Below, in pieces: positions 23,369-30,571 of a DNA stretch of 64,000 bases. The notes under the pieces are model-generated. The model saw only the letters and a list, made by a program, of their open reading frames with translations. It was not told the origin of the DNA and did no database searches. Position 1 is the first letter of the stretch. Every line of letters begins with the position of its first letter. A program made the position numbers and the translations under genes. Source of the DNA: Sulfitobacter sp. THAF37. GTDB lineage: Bacteria; Pseudomonadota; Alphaproteobacteria; Rhodobacterales; Rhodobacteraceae. Location: assembly GCF_009363555.1 (NCBI RefSeq), contig NZ_CP045372.1, positions 2,925,501 to 2,989,500 on the forward strand, in the 5' to 3' direction.

Positions 23369-24204
23369 CATTTCGCACCCGATTTGCCCCGTCCCCCACT
23401 GGTCCGCTGCACCTGGGCCATGCCTATTCCGCCATTCTCGCCCATGACATGGCGCGCGAGGCCGGAGGCGATTTTCTGGTACGGATGGAAAACACCGATC
23501 TGCAACGCAGCAAACCACAGTGGGAGGCGCTGATCCTTGAGGATCTCGCTTGGCTGGGGTTGACCTGGACCGAACCTGTGCTGCGCCAGTCCGACAAGCT
23601 GGACAGCTACGAGGCGTCTCTGACCCGGCTGCAGGACCTTGATCTGCTGTATCCCTGCGGCTGTTCGCGAAAAGACATCCGCGCCGCCGCCGCGGCCCCG
23701 CAGGAAGGCGCAGTTCCTGATGTCTACCCCGGCACCTGCAAGCACCGCGACATGGCAAGCCGTCAGCCCGGCGACGCGCTGCGCCTGCACATGGACCGCG
23801 CGCTGGCGATTTTTGGCGACGATCTGCCCGGCTATTCCGAAACCGGCCCGAAACACGCCGGGTATCACCGGATCGCGCCGGAGCAGGCGTTGTCGACGAT
23901 TGGAGACGTGGTCCTATACCGCAAGAACGACGGCATCATCGCCTATTTCCTTGCCTCGGCACTGGACGACGTGGCGCAGGACATCAGCCATGTGGTGCGC
24001 GGAGAGGATCTGTTCGACTTCACCGCGATACAGGTGCTGTTGCTGGCGCTGCTGGGGTTGCCCGTGCCAGCCTATCACCATCACCGGCTGATCCGGGACA
24101 AGAATGGCAAGAGGCTGGCCAAACGGGACGACGCGCGGGCAATTTCCCTGTTCCGGGCCGGTGGCAAGACACCTGGGGAAATTCGTTCTATGGTCGGCCT
24201 TTAG
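23365..24204 (+). CDS. gluQRS: Glutamyl-Q tRNA(Asp) synthetase
   Basis: Truncated glutamyl-tRNA synthetase paralogue of 279 residues that attaches glutamate to queuosine in tRNA(Asp). It has RFAPSPTGPLHLGHA (HIGH-type motif) at the start and GKRLAKRDDA as the KMSKS counterpart. Zinc ligands are seen in YPCGCSRKDI and YPGTCKHR. The C-terminal anticodon-binding domain of true GluRS is absent, as expected. The GTG start overlaps the previous stop (GTGA). Its final bases form part of a stem shared with the convergent hisI gene. Confidence 0.93.
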   Translation: MTFRTRFAPSPTGPLHLGHAYSAILAHDMAREAGGDFLVRMENTDLQRSKPQWEALILEDLAWLGLTWTEPVLRQSDKLDSYEASLTRLQDLDLLYPCGCSRKDIRAAAAAPQEGAVPDVYPGTCKHRDMASRQPGDALRLHMDRALAIFGDDLPGYSETGPKHAGYHRIAPEQALSTIGDVVLYRKNDGIIAYFLASALDDVAQDISHVVRGEDLFDFTAIQVLLLALLGLPVPAYHHHRLIRDKNGKRLAKRDDARAISLFRAGGKTPGEIRSMVGL

Positions 24205-24220
24205 GCGCCGTTCCTAAAGG
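24198..24220. terminator. Stem-loop shared by the convergent gluQRS and hisI 3' ends
   Basis: CCTTTAGG (24198-24205) and CCTAAAGG (24213-24220) form a perfect 8-bp stem with a seven-base loop. The stop codons of both genes lie within the stem arms. There is no T-run, so this may be a weak bidirectional transcript end or only a codon-constrained palindrome. Confidence 0.4.
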
Positions 24221-24570
24221 GGTTGTGCGATCTCGACCACTTCGCCGTCCCGCACAGCGCGGTAAAAACAACTGCGGCGCCCGGTGTGACAGGCCGGACC
24301 GGTCTGGCGCACCAGCACCAGCAGGCAGTCGGAGTCGCAATCGAACCGCAACTCGACCAGCTCCTGCAGATGCCCGCTGGTCTCTCCCTTGACCCAGAAC
24401 TGCGCGCGCGAGCGGCTCCAATAGGTCACGCGCCCGGTCTGCAGCGTCTGACGAATACTGTCGGCGTTCATCCAGGCCATCATCAGGACCTCGCCGGTTT
24501 CGGCGTCCTGGGCGATTGCGGGGATCAGCCCCGCGTCGTTGAAGGTCAGCGCATCGGGACTAAAGGACAT
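24214..24570 (-). CDS. hisI: Phosphoribosyl-AMP cyclohydrolase
   Basis: Zinc/magnesium enzyme of 118 residues for the third step of histidine synthesis, opening the adenine ring of PR-AMP. The motif set is complete: [30 protein letters not shown] and the zinc-ligand pair [11 protein letters not shown]. It lacks the HisE domain, as in other alphaproteobacteria. I use the ATG at 24570, which has GAGG upstream, instead of the ATG at 24597, which has none. It is divergent from the Fe-S scaffold gene and convergent with gluQRS. Confidence 0.94.
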
Positions 24571-24644
24571 GGGGACCTCGCGTAAAATTTTTTGCATCTT
24601 GGCTTGGGGTGTTTATGTAGGGGTCGAGCGGCAAAGGGAACAGC

Positions 24645-25106
24645 ATGTCGGACGAAACGGACCTGATCAAACTTTATTCCGCGCGGATTCTGGCGCTGGC
24701 TGCCGATATTCCGCATCTGGGCCGCCTGGAGACGCCGGAGGCCACGGTCAAGCGCCGCTCGCCACTGTGCGGGTCGACCGTCACCGTCGATGTGGTGATG
24801 AGGGACGGCAAGGTGGCCGAAATGGCACAGGACGTGAAGGCCTGCGCCCTGGGACAGGCCGCCGCCGCCGTGACCGGCAAGGCGGCACTCGGTGCGACTA
24901 CAGCCCAACTGATCAAGGCGCGCGATCAATTGCGTGCAATGCTGAAAGAAGACGGTCCCGTGCCGGACGCCCCTTTTGACGGGTTCGAAGTGCTGACGCC
25001 TGCGACCGCCTACAAGAATCGCCACGCCTCTATCCTGCTGTCGATCGAGGCGCTGACCGAAGCGGCGGAGACCGCCGTGACCGCGGAACGGATCGGCGAA
25101 GCCTGA
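24645..25106 (+). CDS. Iron-sulfur cluster scaffold-like protein (IscU/NifU N-terminal family)
   Basis: Protein of 153 residues resembling the NifU N-terminal/IscU fold. Two expected cysteine sites are visible, PLCGSTV (about C42) and VKACALGQAAA (about C67). The third site, usually an RxxC pattern before a conserved helix, reads NRHASILLS, so histidine stands where cysteine is expected. It may assemble or carry an Fe-S cluster with a His ligand, or have lost scaffold activity. Proteins of this type next to hisI are common in alphaproteobacteria (family knowledge). The ATG at 24645 is 74 bp from the divergent hisI start. Confidence 0.8.
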   Translation: MSDETDLIKLYSARILALAADIPHLGRLETPEATVKRRSPLCGSTVTVDVVMRDGKVAEMAQDVKACALGQAAAAVTGKAALGATTAQLIKARDQLRAMLKEDGPVPDAPFDGFEVLTPATAYKNRHASILLSIEALTEAAETAVTAERIGEA

Positions 25107-25120
25107 GCTGCTTTCATGCG

Positions 25121-25155
25121 AAAAAAAGCGCCGCACATCCAAAGGATGGCGGCGC
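25121..25155 (-). terminator. Strong rho-independent terminator of the small SOS-type gene
   Basis: GCGCCGC-A-CATCC (25128-25140) pairs with GGATG-GCGGCGC (25144-25155) around an AAA loop. Read on the minus strand it is followed by seven T residues (25127-25121). It lies 140 bp past the stop of the 42-residue gene, implying a long 3' untranslated region. Confidence 0.85.
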
Positions 25156-25294
25156 AGAGGGTGCGGTGCTCCCGTGGGACCCGGTTGCGTTCGACGGGGT
25201 GGCAAACCCCAAGGCTGGAAGGACAGGCAGAACCCCCAGCCGCATCAATTGGGACGGATGCGACGAACGTCCGGCGCGAGCGCGCAGGCAAAAA

Positions 25295-25423
25295 TCAAAC
25301 GAAAGACGGCAGGTGCAACCCCACAACCAGCATGACGACCAGCGCCGCAGCGCCCAGAGCATCCTGCAGCAGCGTGTCCTGGGACCGTGCCGCGATGGAT
25401 TTGACTGTCTTGAGCATCGTCAT
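25295..25423 (-). CDS. 42-residue single-helix membrane protein, LexA-box controlled
   Basis: Short gene with GGAGGCCAAC before its ATG. The product begins MTMLKTVKSIAARSQDTLLQ, a basic amphipathic-looking segment of about 20 residues. One hydrophobic helix follows (about 24-41: LGAAALVVMLVVGLHLP), ending SFV. It is probably an inner-membrane micropeptide. A LexA-type box covers the -35 region of a good promoter and a strong terminator closes the transcript, so this is very likely a real, SOS-regulated gene. It lies just downstream of recG on the same strand but with its own promoter. The setting recalls SOS-induced small division inhibitors such as Caulobacter SidA; no sequence homology is claimed. 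Confidence 0.8.
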   Translation of the reverse strand: MTMLKTVKSIAARSQDTLLQDALGAAALVVMLVVGLHLPSFV

Positions 25424-25458
25424 GTTGGCCTCCGTCTTTGTTGCTCCTTTGTTCTCAT

Positions 25459-25492
25459 TTTATAAACGCTCTGTAAAGAACTTTTTAAGAAC
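25459..25492 (-). promoter_or_regulatory. LexA-type SOS box over a sigma-70-like promoter
   Basis: On the minus strand GTTC-TTAAAAA-GTTC (25492-25478) matches exactly the alphaproteobacterial LexA consensus GTTC-N7-GTTC. A TATAAA -10 (25464-25459) lies downstream with a TTAAAA -35 (25488-25483, spacer 18) inside the box. Overlap of box and -35 fits repression. A second near-match with a six-base spacer lies just upstream. Confidence 0.8.
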
Positions 25493-25520
25493 ATTTGCGA
25501 ACAAAAATGGGGATTTTCAG

Positions 25521-29809
<4,289 letters not shown>

Positions 29810-30517
29810 TCAGCCTGTGGCAGCGAGGGTCCGTTCCGCTGGTTCGGGATCGCGCAGCACATATCCCCTGCCCCAGACCGTTTCGATGTAATTCTGGCCG
29901 CCGGTTGCCGCGCTCAGCTTCTTGCGCAGCTTGCAGATGAAAACGTCGATGATCTTGAGTTCCGGTTCGTCCATGCCGCCGTAAAGATGGTTGAGGAACA
30001 TCTCCTTGGTCAGTGTGGTCCCCTTGCGCAGCGACAGAAGTTCGAACATCTGGTATTCCTTGCCGGTGAGGTGAACGGCCTCCTTGTTCACGCTGACCGT
30101 TTTGGCATCCAGATTGACACAGATCGGCCCGGTTTCGATGACCGACTGCGAATGCCCCTTGGACCGGCGGATGATGGCGTGGATCCGTGCCACCAGTTCC
30201 TCGCGGTGAAACGGCTTGGTCAGGTAATCGTCGGCGCCAAATCCAAAACCCTTGATCTTGTTCTCCGTGTCGTCGGCCCCGGAGAGGATCAGGATCGGCG
30301 TGTCGATCCGGCTGACCCGCAGCTGCCGCAAGACGTCATGGCCGTTCATGTCCGGCAGATCGAGGTCGAGCAGGATCAGGTCGTAGTCATAAAGCTTGGC
30401 AAGGTCGATGCCCTCTTCGCCAAGGTCGGTGGCATAGACGTTCAGGTTGGCATGCGTCAGCATCAGTTCGATGCTGCGGGAGGTTGTAGGATCGTCTTCA
30501 ACTAGCAATACACGCAT
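29810..30517 (-). CDS. ctrA: CtrA, cell-cycle response regulator
   Basis: OmpR-type response regulator of 235 residues that binds TTAA-type sites and controls motility, gene transfer agent and cell-cycle genes in alphaproteobacteria. The start [12 protein letters not shown], the phospho-acceptor D51 in [14 protein letters not shown], and [11 protein letters not shown] of the receiver domain are diagnostic. The C-terminal winged helix has [14 protein letters not shown] and [10 protein letters not shown] use the ATG at 30517 with GGAG upstream. The C-terminus ends AATG, not the terminal AA that serves as a ClpXP signal in Caulobacter, so turnover may differ. A CtrA-like box lies upstream and sciP is the next gene up. 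Confidence 0.97.
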
Positions 30518-30571
30518 TCGCAATCTCCGGGTCTGGCTCACTTGTTAGGCATGGATCGTGAACAAAAAAGG

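Follow-up and report, generated by a model that had tools for sequence, protein, structure and literature searches.

A Small Gene Behind recG

The locus described here lies on the minus strand of the window, by which we mean the whole 64-kb stretch of DNA that was analysed. Behind recG follow a promoter region, a short open reading frame (ORF), a structured RNA and an intrinsic terminator. The individual features are:

25521–27611, minus strand: recG, the constant upstream neighbour of the micropeptide gene
25478–25502, minus strand: three GTTC repeats, spaced by N6 and N7, which lie upstream of the −35 element and abut it
25478–25492, minus strand: exact GTTC-N7-GTTC box (GTTCTTAAAAAGTTC), inside the three-repeat array
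25472–25477, minus strand: probable −35 element TTTACA, with TTTAC 99–100% conserved over 135 promoters
25448–25457, minus strand: invariant block TGAGAACAAA, 98–100% conserved per column and at a fixed distance
25451–25456, minus strand: probable −10 element GAGAAC, assigned with less certainty than the −35 element
25439–25443, minus strand: CAACA near the probable transcription start, 92–99% conserved per column
25429–25433, minus strand: ribosome binding site GGAGG, as read from the sequence, 5 nt ahead of the ATG
25295–25423, minus strand: micropeptide ORF of 42 codons with ATG start, directly 3′ of recG
25156–25293, minus strand: conserved structured RNA, an outer stem closing three hairpins, starting at the stop codon
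25121–25155, minus strand: intrinsic terminator, a GC-rich bulged hairpin (25155–25128) and seven T (25127–25121)

Further upstream, a ligA-like gene (27608–29722) and a gene for a ctrA-like response regulator (29810–30541) are collinear with recG on the minus strand (25521–30541 for all three); both of these labels come from reading the ORF list.

The Micropeptide and Its Conservation in the Rhodobacteraceae

The original prediction had placed a 42-codon ORF with a GGAGG 3′ of recG, and had ascribed to its product a basic start and a single membrane helix. The ORF and its GGAGG are present as described, and the properties of the product were borne out by calculation: hydropathy analysis gave one membrane span (best 19-residue mean of 2.15, residues 18–36), and the net charge of residues 1–16 is +2. 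An AlphaFold2 model consists of a single helix spanning residues 3–41 (mean pLDDT 83, pTM 0.43). A comparison of 33 divergent homologs showed Asp21 in every sequence and Gly24 in nearly all of them.

A search of 98 genomes detected the ORF in 56 of the 58 genomes of the genus, the own genome included; the two genomes without it are 64% and 87% complete. Forty genomes, each representing another family of the class, gave three matches, none better than an E value of 0.27, and the named relatives of the micropeptide belong to Sulfitobacter and other Rhodobacteraceae. Within the family, a query built from an alignment of 28 homologs found the micropeptide in 338 of 394 genomes (E ≤ 0.01), nearly always with one match per genome. 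All 56 genus orthologs have 42 codons counted from the ATG, and the 80 named orthologs have lengths of 39, 40 or 42. Sixteen of the 80 named loci coincide with genus loci, and both sets together comprise 120 distinct loci.

Among the codons of the ORF the third positions are the most variable (entropy 1.35 versus 0.58 and 0.29). The median dN/dS was 0.12 (328 usable pairs of 400 drawn), which demonstrates that the ORF is under purifying selection as a protein. Conservation of the frame and the box in related genomes had been named beforehand as a test on which the prediction could fail, and both are conserved.

recG was found at all 164 micropeptide loci that were inspected (56 genus, 80 named and 28 family loci, duplicates included), and in the sampled rows it ends just upstream of the micropeptide gene on the same strand. 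At 20 further loci, all but one picked for a promoter pattern with few or several changes, recG lay upstream on the same strand in 18 cases, and L287 and L289 gave no recG match. One genus genome contains a weak second micropeptide match (L057; G057:C1:1953536–1953634, plus strand; E 0.006, 52% identity), which is without the recG-type promoter element and is possibly a distant paralog.

Neither a known protein family nor a solved relative could be assigned, since nothing of weight was found in Pfam, NCBIfam, PHROGs or the PDB: the micropeptide of the window had no match in Pfam, NCBIfam or PHROGs, a comparison of the 33 homologs with protein families returned scattered matches of one or two members each (best E 0.005), and the PDB yielded one match with an E value of 3.1. 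Judged from its sequence, the gene probably encodes a conserved, unannotated single-span membrane micropeptide that has its own promoter and is translated.

Architecture of the Promoter

The promoter alignment comprised 135 of 136 sequences (duplicates included), with one promoter of shortened spacer omitted. Its conserved words are, in order, GTTC-N6-GTTC-N7-GTTC-TTTAC, 15 nt, TGAGAACAAA and CAACA; the outer GTTC repeat is 96–99% conserved and the inner two are 99–100% conserved. We assigned TTTAC as the −35 element because TTGAC replaces it in a few genomes, and with the −35 element placed there, the −10 element is most likely GAGAAC. TATAAA, which had originally been taken for the −10 element, had to be given up: it is not conserved, the invariant words being TTTAC and TGAGAACAAA. 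A plain sigma-70 scan reported no promoter within 25080–25560.

The composite promoter pattern occurs once in the own genome when up to three mismatches are allowed. With at most two mismatches it was found in 279 of the 394 family genomes, as compared to 2 for the reversed control, and in 251 of the 347 genomes of at least 90% completeness. Among the matches listed, no family genome has more than one. At L289–L292 the profile search had missed the peptide, yet a diverged peptide sits behind the promoter pattern.

A Structured RNA Starts at the Stop Codon

The sequence behind the stop codon has a common layout at these loci: TTTCTGCCTGCG and the stem CTCATG...CATGAG come first, then three inner hairpins and a GTCCCA bulge, and finally a GC-rich hairpin with a T run behind it. 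The CTCATG...CATGAG stem shows clear partner changes between loci. All six helices upstream of the terminator covary, and the unpaired words are conserved too. TGCCTG is exposed at the 5′ end of the RNA and in one loop. A first copy is present in 134 of 136 loci, at a distance of 3–90 nt from the stop codon (median 5), and only 93 of the 136 have two copies.

Two covariance models were built, the first from 20 genus sequences and the second from 76 sequences of named loci. In the window, the sole significant match had 111.5 bits and covered 25293–25156, the next best having an E value of 0.17. The RNA was detected in all 56 genus loci (training sequences of the model included) and in 76 of the 80 named loci (the misses being L178, L192, L205 and L217), and it is present in 60 of the 64 named loci outside the genus set. 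Tritonibacter mobilis (L199), Pseudosulfitobacter pseudonitzschiae (L159) and Ruegeria halocynthiae (L184) are among the named relatives whose locus has it. When 48 further micropeptide loci were searched at E ≤ 0.01, the first model found it in 30 and the second in 37; at this threshold 11 of the 48 had no match, including the nearly closed, LexA-less genome G246. Six of these loci duplicate named ones, and L136 coincides with L294; after removal of duplicates the RNA is found in 31 of 41 distinct further loci. None of 109 control loci (27 + 82) matched the models at E ≤ 0.01.

Each of the 34 pairs has changed on both sides among 73 distinct sequences, and 87.9% of the cells pair. Cells with changes on both sides numbered 541, compared to 169.7 ± 12.7 after shuffling and 66–138 with slid partners; these counts lean towards the structure, since the alignment was fitted to a fold that had been set manually on the basis of folds of single sequences; the excess is large nonetheless. 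RNAalifold on plain MAFFT alignments recovered the outer stem only in part or gave a result that depended on the scoring. G-U cells outnumber A-C cells (162 versus 59), and this excess, together with the T run behind the hairpin on the minus strand, places the RNA on the strand of the peptide.

6S RNA, tmRNA and other catalogued RNAs were rejected on the outcome of Rfam 15 and ARAGORN searches. For 25080–25600 Rfam 15 returned only a spurious match on the plus strand (E 0.28), and ARAGORN found no tmRNA in 24000–27000. At seven other loci the only Rfam 15 matches were to Ysr141, below the cut-off and on the other strand (L012:123–382, minus, and L174:1633–1870, minus; 39 and 32 bits as compared to a cut-off of 196); the L174 match is located within recG, in antisense orientation. 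The RNA may be among the small RNAs listed for Ruegeria pomeroyi in PMC4809877.

Terminator and Linkage of the Two Parts

The hairpin behind the RNA and its T run form the intrinsic terminator, with a folding energy of −24 kcal/mol for a 60-nt stretch. A pattern search recognises it in 124 of 136 loci, with duplicates counted; a simple terminator scan missed the hairpin because of its bulge. The strong terminator proposed for the micropeptide gene is thus real, but its place had to be corrected: it lies about 140 nt past the stop codon, behind the structured RNA, which had been overlooked.

The close distance between stop codon and RNA, and a terminator that follows only after the RNA, are most simply explained by one transcript. 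Going by this arrangement, a single transcript probably carries both the peptide and the RNA, and a separate start for the RNA would be compatible with it.

The extent of the RNA, from the stop codon to the terminator, would also suit a gene whose sole functional product is the peptide; the RNA would then be a 3′ untranslated region and serve to shield the message or to terminate transcription. Six covarying helices and conserved unpaired words exceed the needs of a stabiliser, however, and we consider this explanation unlikely. We rather lean, with some reserve, towards one transcription unit with two products, a dual-function RNA gene. It is directly supported by purifying selection on the ORF, the conserved promoter, the covarying RNA, the fixed order and strand of the parts, and the terminator; from these we infer a single transcript, insertion of the peptide into the membrane, a small-RNA role and processing.

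The GTTC Box and Its Possible Regulators

An exact GTTC-N7-GTTC box over the promoter was part of the original prediction, and it is found at 25478–25492 on the minus strand. The motif occurs once in the 64-kb window, whereas 1.66 occurrences are expected from shuffles, and 121 times in the whole genome, as compared to 64 for the reversed pattern. On its own the box does not exceed chance, so the case for it rests on comparison across genomes: it is exact in 54 of the 56 genus loci and in all 80 named loci, which amounts to 118 of 120 distinct promoters. The expected number per window would also be in line with ORF and box being chance features, but this view is refuted: frame, length, promoter and position are conserved throughout the family, and the dN/dS of the ORF speaks against it as well. 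Its probability is practically nil.

The surroundings of 20 boxes were examined in the own genome. The motif is found close upstream of lexA and recA; other boxes precede frames assigned by Pfam to UvrD-type helicases, a radical SAM protein and a metallophosphoesterase, and another one precedes a frame read as imuA from its sequence. Because the motif adjoins lexA, recA and repair-type genes, GTTC-N7-GTTC can plausibly be taken for a LexA box in this species. In addition, a 468-codon frame of the own genome that has no Pfam match (L093:142–1545, minus) begins at a GTTC-N7-GTTC box with a matrix score of 18.6 and is a possible unnamed SOS gene.

On this basis the gene could be an SOS gene, in which LexA represses by binding to the box over the −35 element and DNA damage leads to synthesis of a peptide that delays division or alters the membrane in the manner of SidA. 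The exact box overlapping the −35 element in 118 of 120 distinct promoters and the same motif upstream of lexA and recA are in agreement with this, as is the precedent of SidA, an SOS product of 29 residues in the inner membrane with FtsW as its target (PMC4211646). Such a role concerns the regulator and is compatible with a gene of two products.

As a reference we used 37 exact boxes from across the family, found ahead of lexA at 17 of 30 loci and ahead of recA at 14 of 30 loci, and built a LexA matrix from them. The reference boxes reached a median leave-one-out score of 20.6 with a minimum of 14.1 (n = 37). For the 134 micropeptide boxes, a number that includes duplicates, the median was 16.2. 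Random GTTC-N7-GTTC sequences had a median of 8.5, a 90th percentile of 14.8 and a 99th percentile of 19.7. Boxes beside repair-type genes in the own genome scored 9.7 to 19.3, and two of them (11.3 and 9.7) lie below the micropeptide median. The score of the micropeptide box thus overlaps the low end of real LexA boxes and is compatible with LexA. A single base stands against this: the position before the second GTTC (spacer position 7) is T in 34, C in 3 and A in none of the 37 lexA/recA boxes, but A in all 118 distinct exact boxes of the micropeptide promoters. In the wider family survey with the composite pattern, six of the matches listed have T before the second GTTC (G137, with locus L299, G227, G294, G338, G394 and G422), and micropeptide promoters with T in this position would be textbook LexA boxes. 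A LexA box also leaves the third repeat at N6 spacing and the TGAGAACAAA/CAACA block unexplained.

The presence of LexA was surveyed with the domain PF01726 in the 394 family genomes, with at most 15 candidates scored per genome, and the domain was found in 375. A second search with the full LexA protein covered 23 genomes, including the 19 without a PF01726 match. It revealed fragments of LexA in G329 and G218, both from these 19, and short C-terminal similarities only in G421, G155 and G246, and it returned nothing for the remaining PF01726-negative genomes. G165 has a weak PF01726 match and gave nothing with the full protein. Eight LexA-less genomes are at least 95% complete (G126, G155, G165, G246, G254, G256, G263 and G397), and the promoter pattern is kept in five of these (G165, G246, G254, G256 and G397), mostly fragmented assemblies, but not in G126, G155 and G263. 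Where the sequence was read, the box is intact, namely in G165, G246, G254 and G256 and in the less complete G125, G292, G421 and G431; G246, an assembly of 3 contigs, has lost the outer GTTC repeat. Since most LexA-less assemblies are fragmented, a missing lexA may reflect incompleteness. The LexA-less genomes that keep the promoter lean against an exclusive role of LexA, though weakly. In G110 the LexA match (L304 and L310; G110:C1:3113079–3113770, minus) consists of two pieces around one in-frame TGA, and this LexA may be frameshifted or restarted.

Retention of the promoter in LexA-less genomes would be expected if an OmpR-type response regulator or another factor that binds tandem sites activates the gene, the likeness to a LexA box then being coincidental or secondary. 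Three GTTC repeats at 10 and 11 bp that end on the −35 element, and the invariant A, fit such a factor, and OmpR-type regulators bind direct repeats of similar spacing (PMC9275681). CenR and ChvI were considered for the GTTC array, but neither the published CenR motif (TGA-N8-TGA) nor the published ChvI motif fits. It would also be strange for the site to match the LexA consensus exactly by mere chance, and some lexA promoters of the family also have three GTTC repeats, with N7 spacing (those of L223, L224, L228, L242, L245 and L246 contain two overlapping GTTC-N7-GTTC boxes, with three repeats at exact N7). Weighing these points, we regard control by LexA as possible at less than even odds, and we place control by an OmpR-type or other tandem-site regulator in the same range.

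Proposed Function of the Locus

We propose that a tightly conserved, regulated promoter behind recG would give rise to a transcript of roughly 325 nt. A regulator would bind to the GTTC repeats; this could be LexA, or it could be a tandem-repeat regulator, for example of the OmpR type, and we hold each of the two for possible without assuming it. Translation of the 5′ part would yield a peptide of 40–42 residues whose start is basic and whose single helix sits in the inner membrane, and the conserved Asp and Gly at the helix entry would be the likely partner-binding face. The 3′ part would fold so that TGCCTG is exposed, and would end in a terminator with a U run. It would act as a regulatory RNA, probably via base pairing, and perhaps once it has been cleaved off at the U-rich junction that follows the stop codon.

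A wider interpretation, to which we give a little short of an even chance, is that this is a core gene of the family, in which a new micropeptide family and a new family of multibranched regulatory RNAs jointly serve as a stress or division checkpoint. A single-copy locus whose promoter is almost the same in most of the genera sampled points to a core function, one that is unnamed in the sources searched; no description of the peptide or the RNA was found among the open-licence papers that the literature search covered. The locus allows a link between DNA damage or other stress and the control of membrane or division to be tested, and the peptide and the RNA are separable genetically, by mutation of the start codon versus mutation of a stem. 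It also illustrates how a micropeptide noticed in bare sequence may turn out to be only the coding half of an RNA gene that is larger. The host family includes many marine bacteria and some laboratory models.

Comparison with Known Systems

Dual-function RNAs are already known as a kind. RNAs of the SgrS/SgrT type are single terminated transcripts whose 5′ part contains an ORF of about 43 codons and whose 3′ part is a functional RNA. The locus behind recG resembles them in having a short 5′ ORF followed by an RNA, on what would likewise be one terminated transcript. In contrast to SgrS/SgrT, its RNA is multibranched with an outer stem, and its peptide and RNA families, conserved over most of the genera sampled, are absent from the libraries searched.

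The 6S RNA reported for R. pomeroyi has 158 nt and was recognised through Rfam (PMC4809877). The RNA described here is similar in being a structured RNA of about 140–160 nt from the same bacterial family, but it is without an Rfam match.

SidA of Caulobacter, 29 aa long and situated in the inner membrane (PMC4211646), shares with our micropeptide the very small size, the inner-membrane location, predicted in our case, and a possible LexA box. The micropeptide differs from SidA in its 42 aa, its conserved Asp and Gly and the structured RNA attached to it, and a SidA-like effect on division is suggested by analogy only. A single-span peptide under possible SOS control is also reminiscent of the SOS membrane toxins TisB and DinQ (for DinQ, PMC3567139). 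Unlike DinQ and TisB, the micropeptide is encoded at a family-wide chromosomal locus behind recG, and its RNA is on the same strand.
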